Shown one piece after another: positions 22,819 through 60,014 of a stretch of DNA of 64,000 bases. Numbering within the stretch: position 1 is the first letter of the stretch; every line of letters starts with the position of its first letter. The notes under the pieces were generated by a model. That model saw only the letters and a program-made list of their open reading frames with translations. It did no database searches and was not told where the DNA came from. Source of the stretch: a virus. Location of the stretch: positions 1-64,000 of the IMG/VR virus record IMGVR_UViG_3300044949_001557. One strand, given 5' to 3'. The position numbers and the translations under genes were made by a program.

Positions 22819-24258
22819 TTGTTAAAAGAATACAATATCGAAGTCCAGAAACTGTTTCTGGAAATGATGTTAGAAGACGCACAGAGTTATGTGCGTGTTC
22901 AAAACATTTACAATCCGCAAAACTTTGACAAGAGCTTGAGGCCAGCTGCTGAGTTTGTCAAGGAACACAGCGACAAGTTCAGAACCATGCCTGACAGAAA
23001 TCAGATTGCAGCCGCAACTGGAGTCAAACTCGACTCAGTTCCTGAACTCAATGAAGGTCACTATGAGTGGTTCATGCAAGAGTTCGAAGGATTTACTAAA
23101 CGGCAAGAACTAGAACGTGCAATTCTCAAATCAGCTGACTTGCTGGAAAAGGGCGAATTTGAGCCAGTAGAAAAACTGATCAAAGATGCTGTGCAGATCA
23201 GCTTGACCAAAGATTTGGGCACAGACTTTTGGTTAGATCCTGAGGGCATGTTTGCCAAATACTTTGACACCGGCGGTCAAGTGTCGACGGGTTGGCCACA
23301 GTTGGACCGACTGTTGTATGGTGGATTCAGTCGCGGGGAACTCAACATCTTTGCAGGCGGCTCGGGTTCAGGTAAATCGCTTGTGATGATGAACATTGCC
23401 TTGAACTGGGTGCAACAGGGACTTCATGGGGTGTATATCACTTTGGAATTGAGTGAAGAGCTCACTGGTCTACGAACAGCAGCCATGTTGACCAATATGT
23501 CAACCAAGGATATTCGCAGAGACAAAGAAACAGCCACACTCAAAATCAAACTGGTGGGCAAGAAGTCCGGTAGTTATCGCGTGAAGGCAATGCCAGCACA
23601 ATCAAACATCAACGACATTCGTGCGTTCTTAAAAGAGTATCAAATTCAAACAGGACATCGTGTAGACTTTATGATGGTGGACTACTTGGACTTGTTGATG
23701 CCTGTGAGTGCCAAGGTCAGTCCCAATGACTTATTTGTTAAAGACAAGTATGTGAGTGAAGAACTGCGTAACTTGGCCAAGGAACTGGGCATCTTGCTGG
23801 TGACAGCAAGTCAGTTAAACAGATCAGCTGTGGAAGAGATTGAATTTGACCACAGTCATATTTCAGGCGGTATCTCTAAAATCAACACGGCAGACAACGT
23901 GTTCGGTATTTTTACAAGTAGGGCCATGAAAGAACGTGGCAAGTATCAGATTCAGTGTATGAAATCGCGTAGTAGCACAGGTGTTGGACAAAAGATTGAT
24001 CTTGAATACAACATGGAAACCATGCGTATCACTGACGCAGGCGGCGAAGAAGAAGGCTTCAGCAAAAAGCCCACCAGTTCGTTCATGGATCAAATCAAAG
24101 CCAAGTCAAATGTAAAAAGTGAAGGCGACGACAAGTTACCAGGTGGAACACATGCCTGGGACAAGCCCCTGGCCCAATCAGATGATTCAGCCAAAGTAAC
24201 TGCCGACGTTCAAAGTTCCAAACTCAAACAACTGTTGGGCAAAATAAAAACCACGTGA
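22819..24258 (+). CDS. Replicative helicase, gp41/DnaB-type
   Basis: 479 residues (T4 gp41 is 475). It begins at TTG 22819, with AAGGAA 5 bases upstream. The RecA-like core carries Walker A GGSGSGKS (about 180-187) and FMMVDYLDLL as Walker B, with the conserved Q in VTASQLNRSA. A C-terminal tail includes a low-complexity region (GEEEGFSKKPTSSF) and a K-rich end. It hexamerises on the lagging strand with primase. Confidence 0.93.
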   Translation: MLKEYNIEVQKLFLEMMLEDAQSYVRVQNIYNPQNFDKSLRPAAEFVKEHSDKFRTMPDRNQIAAATGVKLDSVPELNEGHYEWFMQEFEGFTKRQELERAILKSADLLEKGEFEPVEKLIKDAVQISLTKDLGTDFWLDPEGMFAKYFDTGGQVSTGWPQLDRLLYGGFSRGELNIFAGGSGSGKSLVMMNIALNWVQQGLHGVYITLELSEELTGLRTAAMLTNMSTKDIRRDKETATLKIKLVGKKSGSYRVKAMPAQSNINDIRAFLKEYQIQTGHRVDFMMVDYLDLLMPVSAKVSPNDLFVKDKYVSEELRNLAKELGILLVTASQLNRSAVEEIEFDHSHISGGISKINTADNVFGIFTSRAMKERGKYQIQCMKSRSSTGVGQKIDLEYNMETMRITDAGGEEEGFSKKPTSSFMDQIKAKSNVKSEGDDKLPGGTHAWDKPLAQSDDSAKVTADVQSSKLKQLLGKIKTT

Positions 24259-25265
24259 TTGAATATGAAGACATCAGAGATGTCCACTTGGAAATCTCAA
24301 GCTTTTGTAATGCCAGTTGTCCTTGGTGCCCTCGGAATTTCTGGGGTTATCCCTATAATGGTGGATATCCTGAAACTAATCTAAGTCTTGATTCTGCACA
24401 ACAGATATTTTCTCCTGAGTTTCTTAAACAACTGATTAGTATCAGGATCAATGGAAATTTTGGGGATATTGTGATGAACCCCGAAGCACCAGACATTGTC
24501 GATTATTTTTATTCAGTTAATCCAGATCTAAAAATCAGCATCAGCACCAATGGAGGTGCACGTGATAAAAAATTTTGGATACAGTTGGCACGCACTCCCG
24601 CAACGGTATTTTTTTGTCTTGATGGCCTAGAAGACACCCATCATCTTTACAGACAAAACACAGTTTGGAATACTGTGATTCGCAATGCCAAAATTTTTAT
24701 CGATGCTGGGGGACAAGCTGTATGGAAAATGATTCGCTTTCAGCACAATCTGCACCAAATAGATCAGTGCAAACGACTCAGCGAAGATCTACGATTCGCA
24801 GACTTTCAGCTGGCATATGATGGTCGCGATACAGCTCCGGTATTTGATCAAAATGGACGTTTGGTTCACGTAATGGGCGACTACACAGGAGAGCGTGATT
24901 TTAAAGTTTTATTTTACAAAAAAAAGACCGATGAAGTATTACTAGAAGATGTAATTGCAGGACGCACATCGGTCGGCAGTGTAAAATGCGAAACCAAGCT
25001 TTTAAAATCCATATACATTTCTGCCACCGGTGATGTAAGTCCTTGTTGTTATACTGGGTTCTATCCTAAAACTTATGGTCGAGGACAATATCATCAAGCC
25101 GCCAATGCTCAATTGATTCCATTGATTGCAAAAAATAATGCATTAGAATACCCTTTGCGACAATGCATAGAATGGTTTGCTGGAGTTGAAGAATCCTGGC
25201 AAATTGGAGACTATAAAAAGGGTCGTTTGCTTATTTGTGATGATAACTGTGGCTCAAACCCATAA
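24255..25265 (+). CDS. Radical SAM enzyme
   Basis: 336 residues from GTG 24255, overlapping the helicase stop (GTGA). The [4Fe-4S] motif C18-x3-C22-x2-C25 (FCNASCPWC) lies at the N-terminus, with later GNFGD and STNGG segments. Further Cys residues near the C-terminus (VKCETK, VSPCCYTG, CIEWF, CDDNCG) look like SPASM/auxiliary cluster ligands. Reaction unknown. The phage also encodes IscU and IscA, which would help load clusters. SPASM-type enzymes often modify peptides or sugars. Confidence 0.75.
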   Translation: MIEYEDIRDVHLEISSFCNASCPWCPRNFWGYPYNGGYPETNLSLDSAQQIFSPEFLKQLISIRINGNFGDIVMNPEAPDIVDYFYSVNPDLKISISTNGGARDKKFWIQLARTPATVFFCLDGLEDTHHLYRQNTVWNTVIRNAKIFIDAGGQAVWKMIRFQHNLHQIDQCKRLSEDLRFADFQLAYDGRDTAPVFDQNGRLVHVMGDYTGERDFKVLFYKKKTDEVLLEDVIAGRTSVGSVKCETKLLKSIYISATGDVSPCCYTGFYPKTYGRGQYHQAANAQLIPLIAKNNALEYPLRQCIEWFAGVEESWQIGDYKKGRLLICDDNCGSNP

Positions 25266-25287: not shown

Positions 25288-25536
25288 ATGCAAAAGAAAA
25301 CTCGCAGTTTGCTGGAAGAACTGGACTCAATGTATGTGGAACGCGACAAGCGACACATCATTGAAAATCGTGCATCCAATGTTATTGCCAGTGCAATTCG
25401 TTTGCTTGAAGAAATTGATGCCACCTACACACCAGAACAAGCAGAAAACCTACATCGCAAATTGTTGAATGCTATCAAGCTGCGTGATCCAGGAAAATTT
25501 ACTAGAACAGTGAGACGCACAGATGCAAATTCATGA
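25288..25536 (+). CDS. Conserved small phage protein, function unknown
   Basis: 82 residues, strongly helical and charged (RSLLEELDSMYVERDKRHII...). A K/R-rich tail ends the protein. A late promoter and AAAAAGG precede it. I recall a similar short protein at this place in T4-type marine phages, where it precedes virion genes. Possibly a scaffold or internal virion component. Confidence 0.6.
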   Translation: MQKKTRSLLEELDSMYVERDKRHIIENRASNVIASAIRLLEEIDATYTPEQAENLHRKLLNAIKLRDPGKFTRTVRRTDANS

Positions 25537-26407
25537 ACTAAATCAACCAAGAAAATCACAGGTCAATGAAATCAACTGGGGTAGCATGTTTAGTTCTGCA
25601 CAGTTAGGTGCAGCTCAACAAGCAGCCACGCAAGCCGCAGCAGCCAAAAACGCAGAAAAATTGGCCAATCCTAATTGGATTAGAAGAGCACTGGGCAATC
25701 CAGCTTACACTGTAGGTGGATCCGTGGCTGATCCGGTGACTCTGCCGCAGTCTTTGCAAACAGTGATGCAGAATCCGGCTGTGCAACAAATGGTCAATAA
25801 TTTAAAAGCACAATGGCAAGCACAGGCACCAACTGTGGTAAATGCTGCCAGGCGCAGAGCCACAGACACTGCACCAGCAGCACCTGCTGCTTCCAGCTCT
25901 GCACCAGCGGCATCTGCCGGCGCTGCAGACACGTCAGCAGTTGATACTCAACTGCAGGACGTAGAATCAGCATTTCAACGTTGGTCTGATTCTAAATTGG
26001 CCATCAGTCGCATTAACATGGACAGTATTCGTAGCAACCCTGCATACAAACAAGCTCTCAGCGACCAACTGACCAAAGTTGCTGTTCAAAGTCTTGCTGA
26101 TCCAAAATCTCCAGCGACCACACAAGCAATCAACACATATTTTAACACAGCAATTGCAGCCATACAAGCAGAAGTCAAAAACAAAGGAACTGCAACCGCA
26201 CAATCTGCTTCTGCTGCTGGTAGTGCCACACCCACTGATGCAGAAATACTGACTCTAGTTCAACAGCAGGGTGTTTCATTGACCAAAGCAGAATTAGAAA
26301 AACTAGGACAAATAATGACCTCGGCCACTGGCAGCAATGTTGTTGGAAACACAGGCAATCCTGTGTTAAATGCCTTGGCTAGACTGGCAGGAATGAGAGT
26401 AACATAA
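25523..26407 (+). CDS. Ala/Gln-rich putative virion protein
   Basis: 294 residues, starting 14 bases before the previous stop. Low-complexity, Ala, Gln, Ser and Pro rich (about residues 25-40, 110-145), with a helical C-terminal half. Such composition is common in phage internal, scaffold or linker proteins. It directly overlaps the next gene by one base. No enzyme motif. Confidence 0.55.
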   Translation: MQIHELNQPRKSQVNEINWGSMFSSAQLGAAQQAATQAAAAKNAEKLANPNWIRRALGNPAYTVGGSVADPVTLPQSLQTVMQNPAVQQMVNNLKAQWQAQAPTVVNAARRRATDTAPAAPAASSSAPAASAGAADTSAVDTQLQDVESAFQRWSDSKLAISRINMDSIRSNPAYKQALSDQLTKVAVQSLADPKSPATTQAINTYFNTAIAAIQAEVKNKGTATAQSASAAGSATPTDAEILTLVQQQGVSLTKAELEKLGQIMTSATGSNVVGNTGNPVLNALARLAGMRVT

Positions 26408-28362
26408 TGAAATTACTGGAAGGCGGAAATGTATTCAAGGATGCCAACGGTAATCCATTGACACAGCGTATCAACAAAGCTGATGTGCCTGCCACTGTTG
26501 CCTGGGTAGAAAAAGTCACAGGCCTGGATTTCACATCTGACGTGGATCCTGAAACCAAAACACCTCTCCGCTGGTTGGGATCAACTGGTAGAGCAGCAAC
26601 ATCTGGGGATTTGGATCTTGCAGTTGATGTCAATGAAGTAGACAAAGAACAACTGGCCGCCAAGCTCACACAGTTTATACAAAGTCAGGGCCAAGATCCA
26701 CAAGAGTGGGTCAAAAAGGGCGGAGAAGTGCATCTCAGAGTGCCCATTGCTGGCAAACCTTCCAATGGATTTGTGCAAACAGATTTTATGTTTTTTTCCA
26801 ACTTGGACTGGGGAGTATTTTACTACGCCGGTGGCGAAGACAGTGCCTACAAAGGCATGAATCGTAATGTGCTGATGAGCTCCATTGCCAAGCAACTGGG
26901 ACTCAAAGTTGGAGCCAATGGCATGTTCAGCAGAGCTACCAATCAACTAGTGCCCAATGGCATGGATCCTGACTATGTGGCACAAACACTGTTGGGACCC
27001 ACTGCCACAAGAAAGAATCTCAAAAACGTAGAAAGTATCTACGCCACATTGGCCACGGACCAGCAACGAGATGCCAAGCTGGCAGACTTCCGAGAATACT
27101 TAAAGCGCGAAGGACTTAACGAACCCATGCTGAGAGAAGACGATGTTGGGTTTCTGGGTCGACTGCGTGATAGAATTGTGAATCAAGGCATGTATGCGTT
27201 GATTGAGCATGAACAAAAACAACATCTAGCGGAAGCCAAAAATCCTCGCATACCTTATATCGAAGACCTGGTGTTTCAAAAAGGACTTGCAGGTGTTCGT
27301 GAAGCCTTGGACATTATCAAACAAACTGCTGAGAACACCAAGCAATATGCCACCATCAAGTGGGACGGTAGTCCAGCTGTGATCTTTGGGCGTAACGATG
27401 CCGGAGAATTTGTGCTCACAGACAAAGCCGGAGCCACTGCTGTGGGTTATGAAGGTCTGGCTCGTAGTCCTGAACAAATTGCCGCAATCATGGCTCAGCG
27501 TGATCAAACAGCAGCAGCCAAAGGTAACAAAGCTGATAGAGTTCAAAAGTTGTTGCCCATGTATCAAGAACTATGGCCTTACCTAGAAGCAGCCACACCC
27601 AAAAACTTTCGCGGATATTTCAAAGGAGACATGCTCTACAGTTCAACTGATCCTGTACAAGCAAACGCTGGCCTCTTGTTGTTCCAGCCCAACAAAATGG
27701 GCGGTATTCCATATAGAATTCCTGAAAACAGTCCGCTGGGACAAAAAATCAAAGACAGCAAAATTGGTCTAGCTATACACACCTACATGGATAATCCCAC
27801 AGGCGTTGAACAGCCAGTCACAGATCCTGAATCCAAGTTAAAAAAAGTGCCTGGGCTCATGGTCACAGGTGCCACAGTAGACACTTTACAAAATCTCAAA
27901 CTTGATAGAAAAATCATGAGCGAGTTGGCCAGTTATGCTCGTGGTGAAAATGCAAAGGCACTGCAAGGTCTTCTCAATCCTGCAGAACTGAGAGCATTAC
28001 AGATCACAGACTTGCCAAGCTTGATGGAAGATTTTATCAACAGTCTTAAAGGCACAGACTATTCCAACGCAACCCCGCAGGCATTTGGCGAGTGGCTGAA
28101 GACCAAGGTCACCCCTCGCAAATATAACAACATTGTGGAATATCTACAGAGTCCTCGTAGCAATATCTTGGGCATGAGTGTTGCTTTTGCCATATGGAAC
28201 AAGTTGCATGAATTAAAAATAGACCTACAGAAACAGCTGGATTTGCAACAGCCGGGACAGGAAGGCTGGGTGTTTAGCACCCCTGCAGGCCGTGCCAAGG
28301 TTGTGAGCAGAACCGCAGGCGGCTTTGCAGATCCTGCCCGTAAAGCCGCAGCTACGAAGTAA
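26407..28362 (+). CDS. Pol-beta-type nucleotidyltransferase fused to a ligase-like (DUF6267-like) domain
   Basis: 651 residues. Domain 1 (1 to about 240) has WLGSTG (57-61) and GDLDLAVD (67-74), the G-S and D-x-D of Pol-beta nucleotidyltransferases, and a third Asp in VQTDFMFF (D126). Domain 2 (about 280-560) has TIKWDGSPAVIF, with K318-x-D320-G321 matching ligase motif I, and FRGYFKGDMLY (about 401-411) resembling motif III/IV, as I recall for DUF6267 proteins of marine T4-type phages. No enzyme of this fusion type is characterised to my knowledge. The gene lies in the late virion block, so it may be packaged. Confidence 0.65.
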   Translation: MKLLEGGNVFKDANGNPLTQRINKADVPATVAWVEKVTGLDFTSDVDPETKTPLRWLGSTGRAATSGDLDLAVDVNEVDKEQLAAKLTQFIQSQGQDPQEWVKKGGEVHLRVPIAGKPSNGFVQTDFMFFSNLDWGVFYYAGGEDSAYKGMNRNVLMSSIAKQLGLKVGANGMFSRATNQLVPNGMDPDYVAQTLLGPTATRKNLKNVESIYATLATDQQRDAKLADFREYLKREGLNEPMLREDDVGFLGRLRDRIVNQGMYALIEHEQKQHLAEAKNPRIPYIEDLVFQKGLAGVREALDIIKQTAENTKQYATIKWDGSPAVIFGRNDAGEFVLTDKAGATAVGYEGLARSPEQIAAIMAQRDQTAAAKGNKADRVQKLLPMYQELWPYLEAATPKNFRGYFKGDMLYSSTDPVQANAGLLLFQPNKMGGIPYRIPENSPLGQKIKDSKIGLAIHTYMDNPTGVEQPVTDPESKLKKVPGLMVTGATVDTLQNLKLDRKIMSELASYARGENAKALQGLLNPAELRALQITDLPSLMEDFINSLKGTDYSNATPQAFGEWLKTKVTPRKYNNIVEYLQSPRSNILGMSVAFAIWNKLHELKIDLQKQLDLQQPGQEGWVFSTPAGRAKVVSRTAGGFADPARKAAATK

Positions 28363-28885: not shown

Positions 28886-29308
28886 ATGCAGATACAGTGC
28901 CGCACAATCTTTGACATCACAGAAACTGGAATCACAGGTCACTACAAGCCTCAGCGAGTTCCGTTTCTTGATCTTGCGGGTCACAATATTGTGGATCAAT
29001 CCAGCTGGGACAGAGCTAGAAACCAACAAAGAAATTTGGAAACCATTGTTCAACTGCTGCAACTACGAACACAGATATTCGACGTTTCCACACCAGTAAA
29101 CCACAACAATTATTGGAATTTTTCATTTGCAGTGGAGTTTGAAGGCATATATCAACAGGATCAAGATCCGTTTGGCATACTCAAACAAGACTGTGAAGGT
29201 GTTCCTATGTTGACAGGCCTGGATGAAAAATTTGTTACCAATTTATTTTTGACCTCAGACGGCAGTCAACAGAACATTTGGTTCGACGTTGTAACGGTAA
29301 ATAACTGA
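28886..29308 (+). CDS. Conserved phage structural-type protein, function unknown
   Basis: 140 residues. QIQCRTIFDITETGITGHY at the start and NNYWNFSFAVEFEGIY further on are segments I recall in proteins encoded near the head genes of T4-type marine phages. Beta-rich, no catalytic motif. Late promoter immediately upstream with a 4-base leader. Confidence 0.6.
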   Translation: MQIQCRTIFDITETGITGHYKPQRVPFLDLAGHNIVDQSSWDRARNQQRNLETIVQLLQLRTQIFDVSTPVNHNNYWNFSFAVEFEGIYQQDQDPFGILKQDCEGVPMLTGLDEKFVTNLFLTSDGSQQNIWFDVVTVNN

Positions 29309-29574: not shown

Positions 29575-30077
29575 TTAGAGATCAAGATTTCGAGCGTTTG
29601 ATTCGCGTGGAGTTTCGGGATATTTTGCCCAGCTTAATTTGGCAAAATGATCAAGGCGATTACGAAGCATTTGGTCGATATAGAATTGTTCCCCAGAAAT
29701 TCGGATACAAAGTATTCATCAACGATCAAAGTCAGGGATTTTTTCACAGCACACGCACAGCCATAAGTTGGTGTGTGGCCGACAAATATCAACAATACAA
29801 TTTGGCTCGGGATCTGTTGAATCTGGACAACATGTTGGAAAACATCAAAAACGACATATTTGTTCGTGCAGGTGTGGCCAACAAAAGTCGTGACCCGGTG
29901 CTGAAAGAAAACATAGAAATCAAACTGGAACTGAAAATTCTGCACAAAAAAGATATCGAAACTCAATTGAACAAATGTTTAAATTGGGCTAAATACCTAC
30001 AGCAAAAAGGATTCGAAAATGAAACTGCAAGATCTGGCCACGCCACAACAATCAAAACAAACCGCTCGTGTGTTTGA
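29571..30077 (+). CDS. Conserved phage-type protein, function unknown
   Basis: 168 residues, overlapping the preceding stop by 4 bases (ATGA). Charged and aromatic, with FHSTRTAISWCVADKYQQYNLARDLLNLD and a helical C-terminal third. Its last 59 bases overlap the start of the next gene in another frame. No family motif recognised. Confidence 0.55.
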   Translation: MIRDQDFERLIRVEFRDILPSLIWQNDQGDYEAFGRYRIVPQKFGYKVFINDQSQGFFHSTRTAISWCVADKYQQYNLARDLLNLDNMLENIKNDIFVRAGVANKSRDPVLKENIEIKLELKILHKKDIETQLNKCLNWAKYLQQKGFENETARSGHATTIKTNRSCV

Positions 30078-30717
30078 AAGTTTTTTTGGTCAAAACATTA
30101 GATTTGATAATCTGAGTCGCAAGCAGACTCGCAACATGCTGAATCGCGTGCGCGGCCTAATACAAGAACAACGTCGCCAACCTGATTTTCATCGCAGCGA
30201 GAAAAATTCTGCTTACTTGAAGCTCATGGTCATGGAACAAGGACTGGCAGCCAGAATGCGTGAAACTGAAGTTTTGCGTGAAGCCAGCGAAGTTCAACAA
30301 GCTCAAGTTGTGCTGGCAGCACAAGACATGGTAGACAAGATGCAGAAGATGTTGGAAGAAATCACTGCCATGCAGTTCAAAGATCTTCCTGCACTGGTTG
30401 ACTCTATCAAGAACGAAGTTGGCCAACAACAGGCCAACCAATTCAATGCTGATGCCACTGCTGCACTCAGCGGTCTGGTGCAAAATCTACAAGCTGGCAA
30501 ACAGCAGATGGATGCTGCCCTGGGAGTTGTCACAGGCGAACCTGCTGCCATGGACACTGGCATGATGCCTGGAGCTGATGCTGGCGCTGTTGCAGATATG
30601 GATGCAGCAGGCGCAGATCTCGATGCCGCTGCCGCAGACCTTGACGCAGCCGCTGGTGCAGCAGGTGCCGAAGAACCTGCTGGCGCCGCTGCTGACCTGG
30701 GTCGTGAGCGCAGATAA
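30019..30717 (+). CDS. Putative prohead-core or internal virion protein
   Basis: 232 residues. A basic, helical N-terminal half (SRKQTRNMLNRVRGLIQEQRRQ, SAYLKLMVMEQGLAARM) precedes a long helix (about 95-160) and an Ala/Asp/Gly-rich acidic tail with repeats of D-A-A-x-A-D-L-D-A-A (about 185-215). This plan is common in phage scaffold or core proteins and I recall relatives in T4-type marine phages. The tail was probably duplicated in place. Confidence 0.5.
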   Translation: MKLQDLATPQQSKQTARVFESFFGQNIRFDNLSRKQTRNMLNRVRGLIQEQRRQPDFHRSEKNSAYLKLMVMEQGLAARMRETEVLREASEVQQAQVVLAAQDMVDKMQKMLEEITAMQFKDLPALVDSIKNEVGQQQANQFNADATAALSGLVQNLQAGKQQMDAALGVVTGEPAAMDTGMMPGADAGAVADMDAAGADLDAAAADLDAAAGAAGAEEPAGAAADLGRERR

Positions 30718-31558: not shown

Positions 31559-31942
31559 ATGGCATATTCGGAAAAAGTTGTGGAACATTATGAAAACCCA
31601 CGCAACGTGGGTAGTTTTGCCAAGGATGACCCCGATGTGGGCACTGGCATGGTCGGCGCACCGGCATGCGGTGACGTAATGAAATTACAAATTCGGGTAG
31701 AAGATGGCATCATCACAGACGCAAGATTCAAAACCTACGGTTGCGGTAGTGCAATCGCGAGTTCCTCTCTTGTTACCGAGTGGGTTAAAGGCAAGACGCT
31801 GGACGAGGCCGCAGCTCTTAAAAATAGCCAAATTGCTGAAGAACTTGCCCTGCCCCCAGTCAAAATCCATTGTTCAATCCTTGCTTCTGACGCCATCGCC
31901 GCTGCAATCAAAGACTATAAAGAAAAACACGAGCAAACATAG
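31559..31942 (+). CDS. iscU: Fe-S cluster scaffold protein IscU
   Basis: 127 residues, against 128 for E. coli IscU as I recall it, and aligned with it end to end without apparent gaps of note. The three cluster-binding Cys are present (C37 in GAPACGD, C62 in TYGCGSA, C105 in KIHCSIL), as is D39. LPPVK (98-102), the HscA chaperone recognition motif, is intact. So the protein should work with host IscS and HscBA. AAAGGA lies before the ATG. No phage IscS is seen here. Unusually bacterial-like for a phage gene, suggesting recent acquisition. Confidence 0.95.
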   Translation: MAYSEKVVEHYENPRNVGSFAKDDPDVGTGMVGAPACGDVMKLQIRVEDGIITDARFKTYGCGSAIASSSLVTEWVKGKTLDEAAALKNSQIAEELALPPVKIHCSILASDAIAAAIKDYKEKHEQT

Positions 31943-49932: not shown

Positions 49933-51300
49933 ATGATTGACTATACAGAAGAAAGGTTTGTCGGAGCAGTGAGTGCCTCATGGATTCGAGACTTGGAAAG
50001 TAGCGATAGCCGGATCCACAAGGAAAAAGTTATTGAAAAAGCACTCATGGCCGCCAAACTCGGCAGTGCTGATGCGCAGGCTTTCTTGTTCAACTGCTAC
50101 CAGGCCTACAATCCTTTTTATACTTTCAATGTCAAGCAAGTTCCCGAAACTCGAGATCTAACAGACCGTCCCAATCCCTGGCCGCGTTTTTGGGCCTTGC
50201 TGGAAGATCTGCGCACTCGAGGCATTTCAGGACACCGCGCACGTAATGCCATTCAAGAATGTGCTGAACAGTTTGACAGCGATAATTGGAACACACTGTG
50301 TCGCAGAGTGATTATCAAAGACCTACGTTGCGGCATCTCAGAAAAGACCTTGAACAAGGTGCTGGGCAAGACCGAATGGCGAATTCCTGTGTTTGGTTGT
50401 CAGTTGGCGCAAGACTCTACAAATCATCCTAAAAAGTTGCGCGGTATCAAGCGCCTGGAATGCAAGCTGGATGGTGTGCGTGTGTTGGCTGTGGTCAGCG
50501 GCGCTTCGTGTGTGCTATACAGTCGCAACGGCAAAGAGTTTGAAAACTTCCCGCAGATTGCCGAAGCTATTTTAGACAATCGCAAAGCATTTCAATGGGG
50601 TCGTGGCACCGGTGGACATTTTGTGCTGGACGGTGAGATTGTGGGCGAAAGTTTTCAAAAGCTCATGCGTCAAGCACATCGTAAAAGCAATGCAGAAACT
50701 ACAGACATGGTGTATCACATCTTTGATATCTTGCCCTTGGAAGCCTTCAAAGAAGGACACTGGAATGCACAGCAATACAAACGACTGGAATGGTTGGAAT
50801 CGGCTCGTAACCAACTGATGGAAACTGATTGTTTGCGCATCATGAATGGTCTGGAAGTGGATTTGGACACAGCCGAAGGGCACGACATCATGCAACGCTA
50901 TGCCGAAGACGCTGTGGCTGAAGGGTTCGAAGGCATCATGATCAAGGCCATGGATGCACCCTATGAGTGCAAACGCAGTGACTTTTGGATGAAATGGAAA
51001 CCTGTTATTTCGGTAGATCTCGAAATTGTGGGTTTTGAAGAAGGAACTGGTCGCAATGCAGGCCGACTGGGTGCTATAATTTGCGAAGGAGAAGATCATG
51101 GACGTCGTATTCGTGTCAATGTTGGTAGTGGCTTGTCTGACAATGATCGTGATGGGTATTGGGCTGGACGTGATAACCTACTTGGACACTTGGTGGAGAT
51201 CCAGGCAGACGCAGTCACACAAAACCAAGACGGAACATACTCCTTGAGATTCCCGCGCTTCTTGCGCTTCCGTGACTTCGAAGCAGGAGAAAAAGTTTGA
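49933..51300 (+). CDS. ATP-dependent DNA ligase, gp30-type
   Basis: 455 residues (T4 gp30 is 487). An N-terminal helical part (about 1-150) precedes the adenylation core: motif I K178-L-D-G (ECKLDGVR), FVLDGEIVG, FEGIMIK and WMKWKP. An OB-fold C-terminal part ends the protein. It seals nicks in DNA. Start codon follows an AT-rich TTAAATA, without room for a leader. The next gene starts at TTGA overlapping its stop. Confidence 0.93.
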   Translation: MIDYTEERFVGAVSASWIRDLESSDSRIHKEKVIEKALMAAKLGSADAQAFLFNCYQAYNPFYTFNVKQVPETRDLTDRPNPWPRFWALLEDLRTRGISGHRARNAIQECAEQFDSDNWNTLCRRVIIKDLRCGISEKTLNKVLGKTEWRIPVFGCQLAQDSTNHPKKLRGIKRLECKLDGVRVLAVVSGASCVLYSRNGKEFENFPQIAEAILDNRKAFQWGRGTGGHFVLDGEIVGESFQKLMRQAHRKSNAETTDMVYHIFDILPLEAFKEGHWNAQQYKRLEWLESARNQLMETDCLRIMNGLEVDLDTAEGHDIMQRYAEDAVAEGFEGIMIKAMDAPYECKRSDFWMKWKPVISVDLEIVGFEEGTGRNAGRLGAIICEGEDHGRRIRVNVGSGLSDNDRDGYWAGRDNLLGHLVEIQADAVTQNQDGTYSLRFPRFLRFRDFEAGEKV

Positions 51301-58772: not shown

Positions 58773-60014
58773 ATGTCAAAAATTGGTTTCATTGGGATCG
58801 GTAAACTTGGCCTGGACTGCGCCGAAGTAATGGCCGAGAAACACGAAGTTCGCGGATACGACATCTACCCGCGCACCAGCGACACAGTCAAAGTTTGTGC
58901 CATTGATGAATTGGTCAATGAAAGCGAATGGATTTTTATTGCAGTGCCAACACCGCATGCTGAGGGCTATGATGGTAGTGTGCCCAGTAGTCACATGGAG
59001 CCCAGAGACTTTGGACACGATGCTGTGATTGATGCTATCAAAAATGTCAATCAGTATGCAAAGAGTCCCAAAAAGGTTGTGCTGATCAGCACAGTGTTGC
59101 CAGGCACAACCCGCAAGCATTTTGTGCCACTGCTGGACAGAAAACATCAGTTCTTGTATAACCCTTATCTCATCGCCATGGGCTCTGTGAAGTGGGATAT
59201 GGTCAACCCTGAAATGATCATGATCGGAACCGAAGACGGCAACCCCAATGCCTTGGCCGGAGAACTGCGTGAACTGTATGACACAGTGATGCAAAACAAT
59301 CCACGCTATGAGATTGGCACCTGGGACGAGTGCGAAGCTATCAAAATTTTCTACAACACATTTATTTCGGCCAAAGTAGGCTTGGTAAACATGATTCAAG
59401 ACTTTGCCATGCGTATTGGCAACATCAATGTGGATGTTGTTACCAATGCTCTAGCACGAAGCACCATGCGTATCATGGGCCCCAAGTATATGACCGCAGG
59501 CATGGGCGATGCAGGTGCTTGCCACCCACGCGACAATATTGCTCTGCGTTGGTTGGCCAAAGAATACAACATTGGCTATGACTTGTTTGACACTGTAATG
59601 CATGCTAGAGAAATTCAAGCCAAGAATCTTGCGCTGTTTTTGGTAGACTTGAGTGTGATGAACGACAACATGCCTATTGCGATCCACGGCAAGGCATACA
59701 AGCCTGATGTTGAATACTGTATCGGTAGCTATTCTACCCTGGTTGGACACTATGTTGAACAGGAAGGCAAGAGTGTGGTTTATATTGATCCGCTGGCCGA
59801 CGACAAAGACAAAGTAGTCGACAGTATCAGCAAGCCCAGTGTTATTTTGTGGGCACACGATCGTCAGATCACTTATGAATACACAGGTGAACAGGACAAG
59901 ACACAGCCCTACTGTGCTATTCCCGATGGTTCGATGATTGTTGATCCATGGCGCAAGCTCAAATCTACTGATCGAGTTGAGGTTGTCCACTATGGCAACA
60001 CAAGAAATTCTTAA
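58773..60014 (+). CDS. UDP-glucose/GDP-mannose-type nucleotide-sugar dehydrogenase
   Basis: 413 residues. NAD-binding GIGKLG (8-13), VLISTVLPGTT, a central helical dimer domain, and the catalytic Cys C250 in GMGDAGACHPRDN (where bacterial enzymes have G-S/A-C-F-P-K-D). C-terminal domain with HGKAYKPD. It oxidises an NDP-hexose to the uronate. Supplies glycan building blocks, probably linked to the 1-11 kb island. AAAGGAA before the ATG. Confidence 0.88.
   Translation: MSKIGFIGIGKLGLDCAEVMAEKHEVRGYDIYPRTSDTVKVCAIDELVNESEWIFIAVPTPHAEGYDGSVPSSHMEPRDFGHDAVIDAIKNVNQYAKSPKKVVLISTVLPGTTRKHFVPLLDRKHQFLYNPYLIAMGSVKWDMVNPEMIMIGTEDGNPNALAGELRELYDTVMQNNPRYEIGTWDECEAIKIFYNTFISAKVGLVNMIQDFAMRIGNINVDVVTNALARSTMRIMGPKYMTAGMGDAGACHPRDNIALRWLAKEYNIGYDLFDTVMHAREIQAKNLALFLVDLSVMNDNMPIAIHGKAYKPDVEYCIGSYSTLVGHYVEQEGKSVVYIDPLADDKDKVVDSISKPSVILWAHDRQITYEYTGEQDKTQPYCAIPDGSMIVDPWRKLKSTDRVEVVHYGNTRNS

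Follow-up and report, generated by a model that had tools for sequence, protein, structure and literature searches.

What does a phage gain from a protein that joins a nucleotidyltransferase to a ligase-like domain, encoded within its block of virion genes? The question is raised by a 651-aa gene in the window, the whole 64,000-nucleotide stretch of DNA analyzed here, whose source record is a 64,106-base virus fragment. The original prediction, made from the sequence alone, read the protein as a fusion of a Pol-beta-type nucleotidyltransferase and a ligase-like domain, and fold, motifs and conservation now agree with that reading.

Gene and protein family

26407..28362 (+): Pol X-like nucleotidyltransferase and DUF6267 ligase-like fusion, 651 aa (ORF; DUF6267 E 1e-19; at least 597 related stretches in an IMG/VR scan with the whole fusion)

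The open reading frame is intact from its ATG at 26407 to its stop at 28362, and the ATG overlaps the stop of the gene before it. The two-domain fusion is genuine and belongs to a large phage family. Searches of PDB sequences with the single fusion protein and with profiles of both halves returned nothing meaningful, and a promoter scan performed no better on the DNA than on shuffles.

The N-terminal half is Pol X-like

26422..27189 (+): Pol X-like catalytic domain, residues 6-261 (AlphaFold model pLDDT 92.7, pTM 0.83)
26602..26616 (+): SGDLD, residues 66-70, with catalytic Asp D68 and D70
26782..26784 (+): D126, third catalytic Asp, in VQTDFMF

The G-S, D-x-D and third Asp described originally are all present, as G58-S59, S66-G-D68-L-D70 and V-Q-T-D126, and together they form the triad of Pol X (GS..GDxD plus a third Asp); the D-x-D itself is D68/D70 and not D69/D71, an error of one position. 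D68 and D70 are invariant in 161 aligned homologues and D126 in 163 of 163, which, along with the equally invariant C-terminal motifs described below, shows that these nucleotidyl-transfer signatures did not arise by chance.

Structure prediction, proposed as a check, gave a Pol X-like fold for this half. All 50 of the listed PDB matches to the model are family X DNA polymerases (prob 1.00; E 1.9e-5 to 2.2e-4; 173-227 aligned columns; TM 0.39-0.49 by query length), including T. thermophilus PolX, pol lambda, pol mu and TdT. When the N-domain was compared with a Pol X profile of six sequences, five from prokaryotic plasmid records and one human Pol beta, the result was E 6e-4 with a prob of 28%, and the alignment spans the third Asp and the nucleotide-binding region (VQTDFMF...GLKVGANGMF versus IQVDLR...GWKLNEYGIF). 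Fold matches and profile thus both include the nucleotide-binding subdomain that follows the palm in Pol X. In a joint alignment, the triphosphate- and metal-binding Pol beta residues R149, S180, S188, G189, D190, D192 and D256 correspond to R21, S59, S66, G67, D68, D70 and D126 of the phage protein. R21 is kept in 159 of 160 homologues, position 59 holds either Ser or Thr, and no variation is seen at G67 or at the three Asp.

The N-domain lacks the 8-kDa lyase and HhH regions, with only about 20 residues preceding the Pol X-aligned region, which begins near residue 20. In this it resembles the Pol X of African swine fever virus (ASFV), a reduced enzyme that likewise has no 8-kDa domain (PMC5330486). 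No Pfam match was obtained for residues 1-261, the DNA_pol_B palm profile was absent from the record at E<=10, and the Pfam Pol-beta/Pol X profiles matched 0 of 30 N-domain members. We assign the N-terminal half to the Pol-beta superfamily fold and describe it more precisely as Pol X-like, which is short of proven membership in the family. A reading as a CCA-adding or minimal MNT-type enzyme was dropped, the listed fold matches being all to Pol X.

The C-terminal half is ligase-like

27226..28359 (+): DUF6267 ligase/capping-like domain, residues 274-651 (model pLDDT 91.6, pTM 0.87; fold matches)
27358..27369 (+): motif I, K318-W-D-G321, with the candidate nucleotidylated lysine (K, D and G invariant in 318 homologues)
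27628..27630 (+): motif III, D408, in GYFKGD, residues 403-408 (316 of 316 homologues)
27778..27780 (+): motif IIIa, H458, in LAIHT (315 of 315 homologues)
28261..28266 (+): motif IV, E619-G620, in QEGWV (invariant)
28297..28311 (+): motif V, K631-V-V-S-R635 (K631 and R635 in 311 of 311 homologues)

The C-terminal half matches DUF6267 (PF19782) with 71.6 bits versus a curated cut-off of 27, and also phrog_455; both families are without an assigned function, and a literature search returned no papers on DUF6267 or on the cyanophage 'cytitidyltransferase'. K318-x-D-G and GYFKGD lie exactly where the original prediction had placed them. Motifs I, III, IIIa, IV and V of the ligase/capping superfamily occur in order, those beyond I and IV being assigned by that order and by predicted strands, and in the model they are found on or beside strands; a helical insertion separates IIIa from IV. 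Among 49 diverse members, and then among more than 300, K318-x-D-G, D408, H458, K604, E619-G and K631-x-V-x-R are invariant or nearly so, and K318, D320, G321, D408, H458, K604, E619, G620, K631 and R635 are invariant in the 311-318 homologues aligned at these positions.

The second proposed structure prediction gave a confident model. Its 15 top-ranked PDB matches are without exception DNA or RNA ligases, and ligases or capping enzymes make up most of the first 50, but the matches are individually weak (best E 0.077, TM about 0.2; none reach E 1e-3). Beyond the domain's own family, a fold search of BFVD found a 446-aa protein of Pseudomonas phage PA5oct (E 2.7e-6) and an RNA ligase of Agrobacterium phage Atu_ph07 (E 2.2e-3). 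The C-domain lacks an OB-fold because the protein ends 16 residues past R635 of motif V, and motif VI is absent as well. No Pfam ligase match was found for the C-domain of the window or among the 25 families shown for the 49 members. When the C-domain was compared by hhalign, as a single sequence, with ligases of T4 and of the window, no significant match emerged; the short local alignments obtained with two of the ligases fall on motif I, but unrelated proteins score equally. The ligase-like character of this half is well supported, and the ligase activity is putative.

Coupling of the two halves across phages

The best 80 IMG/VR relatives are members of the fused family, most being full-length fusions and a few being cut by contig ends. 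In isolated phages, the halves occur as separate genes, and relatives of the N-terminal half were found in PA5oct and its kin, Atu_ph07 and Sinorhizobium phage Phosso. Relatives of the C-terminal half were found in 471 records, mainly of cyanophages. A single scan of bacterial and archaeal genomes yielded no cellular relatives of the N-terminal half. Among 80 N-domain loci from IMG/VR, scanned with an alignment as the query, the domain is fused to DUF6267 in 15; in 55, DUF6267 is encoded by its own gene elsewhere in the locus, usually directly downstream; and the remaining 10 lack DUF6267 within the sequence available.

Other arrangements of the pair were also found. Locus L214 holds a reversed fusion with DUF6267 first, and triple fusions carry a HIGH-type nucleotidylyltransferase at the N-terminus (L207, L231) or at the C-terminus (L198). 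In Atu_ph07 and Phosso, the N-domain gene is immediately preceded by a gene for a separate KxDG ligase-like protein, weakly matched by Pfam RNA_ligase (E 0.002 and E 0.085, respectively), and PA5oct has, three genes upstream of its N-domain gene, a KIDG/EGYV protein that the DUF6267 profile also finds (i-Evalue 5e-6 in a ten-protein search). The occurrence of split, reversed and triple-fusion arrangements therefore indicates that the coupling of the halves is functional, and this coupling is strongly supported. Computationally, then, the analysis establishes a Pol X-type fold with invariant catalytic residues, a full set of ligase motifs and the evolutionary coupling of the two.

DUF6267 also has another companion. 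Cyanophages and the Pelagibacter phage HTVC008M carry it without a Pol X-like partner and beside a HIGH-type gene, to which it is fused in S-PM2. The HIGH signature was detected in 61 of 80 and 58 of 80 DUF6267-only loci (the two sets being L085-L164 and L251-L330); for N-domain loci the count was 4 of 80, and for fused loci 0 of 80. Pol X-like and HIGH-type nucleotidyltransferases thus appear to be largely alternative partners of DUF6267.

Some details of these loci deserve mention in their own right. In S-PM2 (AJ630128; L165 7992-9771), DUF6267 extends over two annotated CDS, the second fused to a cytidyltransferase-like domain; BFVD holds an unsplit 591-aa version, and the split may be a sequencing error. 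Genes adjacent or close to the ligase-like gene in L084 (6935-7993), L167 (5070-5987) and L082 (4641-5660) show possible nuclease-like motifs by eye, that of the HTVC008M gene being KTDFTIGNNKISLKSG. A zeta-toxin/AAA_33-type P-loop kinase (E 3e-13) is encoded two genes after DUF6267 in HTVC008M (L084 9730-10392).

Genomic neighborhood and probable presence in the virion

25288..25536 (+): 82-aa gene, a marker of synteny with homologues close to the pair in Phosso, PA5oct and Atu_ph07 (iterated profile E 3e-30, 6e-29 and 6e-24)
28886..29308 (+): 140-aa gene, with a PA5oct homologue (L082 7536-8000, E 7e-12) annotated as an MS-identified virion protein
30019..30717 (+): 232-aa gene, phrog_14154 virion structural protein (phrog E 1e-11), with a PA5oct homologue (L082 9117-10304, E 1e-45) annotated as MS-identified

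The position of the gene in a virion block, as first proposed, is upheld by synteny with PA5oct genes annotated as ESI-MS/MS virion proteins, despite the primase and DnaB-like helicase genes just upstream of the fusion. The N-domain protein of PA5oct, EST35_0231, is itself annotated 'structural protein, ESI-MS/MS'. In Atu_ph07 the ligase and N-domain genes are, by our own count of the record, CDS 66 and 65, and both fall within the published virion cluster, CDS 31-76 (PMC6102473). The window also has an ordinary DNA ligase gene at 49933-51300, so the ligase-like domain of the fusion is not needed for routine sealing. The fusion protein is probably packaged in the virion; the support for this part of the original prediction is indirect, coming from the PA5oct annotation, the Atu_ph07 cluster and, as described below, LxE sites and a gp21-type protease in relatives.

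Elsewhere in the window, a protein with weak radical SAM/SPASM similarity (24255-25265) lies between the DnaB-like helicase and the fusion, and genes for a NifU-like Fe-S cluster assembly protein (31559-31942; phrog_8429, E 2e-41) and a UDP-glucose dehydrogenase (58773-60014; phrog_9148, E 2e-90) were recognized.

Candidate prohead protease sites

26407..26421 (+): MKLLE, candidate N-terminal propeptide with an LxE/GG site (E5, G6 and G7 nearly invariant in alignments)
27190..27246 (+): inter-domain linker of variable sequence, in which candidate sites for the prohead protease follow E267 (LIE/H) and E276 (LAE/A), marked by [LIV]xE enrichment

The T4 prohead protease prefers L/I-x-E. The fusion begins with MKLLE/GG, a candidate propeptide that ends in LxE and precedes a Gly, and several leaderless homologues start exactly at GG (Met-GG). 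The start of the Pol X-like part reads LTE/GG in the reverse-order fusion and LINE/GG in a triple fusion, and separate DUF6267 proteins often have a similar LxE/A at their own N-terminus. In the linker, [LIV]xE was found in 51 of 51 distinct sequences versus a mean of 25 in shuffled ones and 10 elsewhere in the same proteins, and [LIV]xE followed by A, G or S in 36 linkers versus 7.6 and 2.3 expected, an excess that is suggestive of protease sites and carries no calibrated probability, the linkers sharing descent and the counts not being phylogenetically independent.

T4-type head proteins bear short N-terminal capsid-targeting sequences that are removed by gp21, and a related protease cuts after Glu, at A-x-E (PMC5694885, PMC10052503). 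The candidate propeptide has five residues here, and those of T4 are longer, at 10-20. Capsid-targeting-like (CTS-like) N-termini are enriched in related loci (65 versus 3 and 47 versus 0 in controls) and scarce in other genes of the window's own clade (21 versus 16 in the control). A gp21-type protease, PF03420, scored above the cut-off in two of seven relative records, all of them possibly incomplete. The PA5oct synteny, the [LIV]xE sites and the gp21-type protease in two relatives together suggest a packaged precursor of two enzymes that is cut in the capsid.

Similar N-termini were noticed in other proteins. Atu_ph07 has a tandem array of five paralogues starting MRWHQLxEA or similar, capsid-targeting-like and possibly, by eye, ADP-ribosyltransferases (L169 7558-11735). 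In three loci without DUF6267 in the sequence available (L222 5702-6658, L235 3010-3966 and L250 3389-4345), a second nucleotidyltransferase-like protein, again with a capsid-targeting-like N-terminus by eye (VRAKEFILEGG), follows right after the N-domain gene.

Proposed function and alternative explanations

We infer packaging, cleavage, substrate and every activity as follows. The gene product would be a precursor of two virion-borne enzymes that is drawn into the prohead during head assembly, where a T4 gp21-like protease would cut after LxE at the N-terminus and in the linker. The products of cleavage, a compact Pol X-like nucleotidyltransferase and a ligase-like enzyme, would both be delivered along with the phage DNA. 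With an NTP and two metals on D68, D70 and D126, the Pol X-like part may then extend broken ends or fill gaps, and the ligase-like part may become charged with NMP on the lysine K318 and close the end. The pair would most likely act on the incoming phage DNA, at nicks, gaps or ends that result from damage, packaging or host nucleases. We give an even chance to a pair of enzymes that is carried in the virion, matured by a protease and used to fill and seal the ends of nucleic acids, with DNA likelier than RNA. Several results count against this explanation: the missing Pfam Pol X matches, the weak C-domain fold matches, the lack of an OB-fold, motif VI and an 8-kDa lyase domain, the ordinary DNA ligase of the phage, a protease in two of seven relative records, the shared descent of the linkers and the short propeptide. 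In addition, the unrelated HIGH-type partner of many DUF6267 genes is not explained by gap filling. We are more doubtful that the fusion is a capsid polyprotein, cut by the prohead protease in the assembling head, whose end-processing kit would be injected with the genome and mend its ends or breaks, for instance after cutting by host defences, before phage genes are expressed.

The original prediction named RNA repair, possibly of tRNA, or DNA end processing. In RNA repair, the Pol-beta half would rebuild 3' ends and the ligase half would rejoin tRNA or other RNA that host defence nucleases had cleaved. The RNA_ligase matches of the Atu_ph07 and Phosso partner ligases agree with this, as do the tRNA and archaeal RNA ligases among several of the C-domain PDB matches, the missing OB-fold, which resembles the condition of RNA ligases, and the zeta-toxin/AAA_33-type kinase downstream of DUF6267 in HTVC008M. 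However, the 50 listed N-domain matches are to family X DNA polymerases, with no CCA-adding enzyme or poly(A) polymerase among them, and the window revealed neither a phosphatase nor a kinase as a partner. Specific support for RNA or tRNA repair was thus not obtained, the Pol X match points more to the filling of DNA gaps or ends, and we consider this alternative unlikely; of the two substrates first named, DNA is favored by the Pol X match, against which stands the resemblance of the Atu_ph07 partner ligase to RNA ligases.

The packaged halves could instead act as host-takeover effectors that, once injected, modify host proteins or small molecules by nucleotide transfer, comparable to the T4 ADP-ribosyltransferase Alt. 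Pol-beta-superfamily nucleotidyltransferases do occur in phage-injected polyvalent proteins as proposed protein modifiers (PMC5512222), and neighbor genes in relatives have capsid-targeting-like N-termini. Such a role is quite unlikely, given that the Pol X-specific region past the palm and the triphosphate-binding residues are kept and that the regular companion is a covalent ligase-fold partner. Least probable among these alternatives is an ordinary replication or repair enzyme that stays unpackaged in the infected cell, its LxE sites being incidental. The primase and DnaB-like helicase genes upstream of the fusion fit an enzyme of this kind, as does DUF6267 adjoining primase-helicase genes in cyanophages and HTVC008M, but the annotated MS identification of the PA5oct N-domain protein in virions, the location of the Atu_ph07 pair inside the virion cluster and the LxE enrichment in linkers speak against it.

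Comparison with known systems

The filling and sealing pair that we favor has its closest parallels in viruses of eukaryotes. PgVPolX of Phaeocystis globosa virus is a Pol X-ligase fusion for which gap filling and nick sealing have been demonstrated (PMC5537341), and, as in the phage fusion, a viral Pol X core is N-terminal and a ligase domain C-terminal. PgVPolX has an NAD+-dependent LigA-like ligase and lyase activity, whereas the phage protein has DUF6267, with no OB-fold and no 8-kDa domain; an NAD+-dependent DNA ligase domain of the PgVPolX type was not found, with no Pfam ligase match in the C-domain. Unlike PgVPolX, the phage fusion also has a bacterial host and LxE sites in its linker. 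In ASFV, a reduced Pol X and a ligase, a set like that of the phage fusion, are listed as virion nucleoid proteins and thought to repair DNA before replication (PMC12172490), although they are encoded by separate genes of a eukaryotic virus and the ligase is a canonical DNA ligase. The internal head proteins and Alt of T4 share the short N-terminal LxE sequence, gp21-type trimming and the delivery of enzymes with DNA (PMC3012670, PMC5694885); the phage fusion differs in its five-residue candidate propeptide and in the putative second cut inside it. Within DUF6267/phrog_455, to which the C-terminal half belongs, the cyanophage members differ in their partner, which is a HIGH-type nucleotidylyltransferase and not a Pol X-like domain.

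These results give DUF6267, a family without a function that spans hundreds of phage records, many from marine cyanophages, a testable biochemical role. They also suggest that some tailed phages may resemble large eukaryotic DNA viruses in carrying fill-and-seal repair in the virion. By packaging the protein, the phage may bring its own nucleic-acid repair kit into the host cell. Should cutting take place at the internal LxE sites, the fusion would represent a polyprotein of phage enzymes whose maturation depends on the prohead protease.
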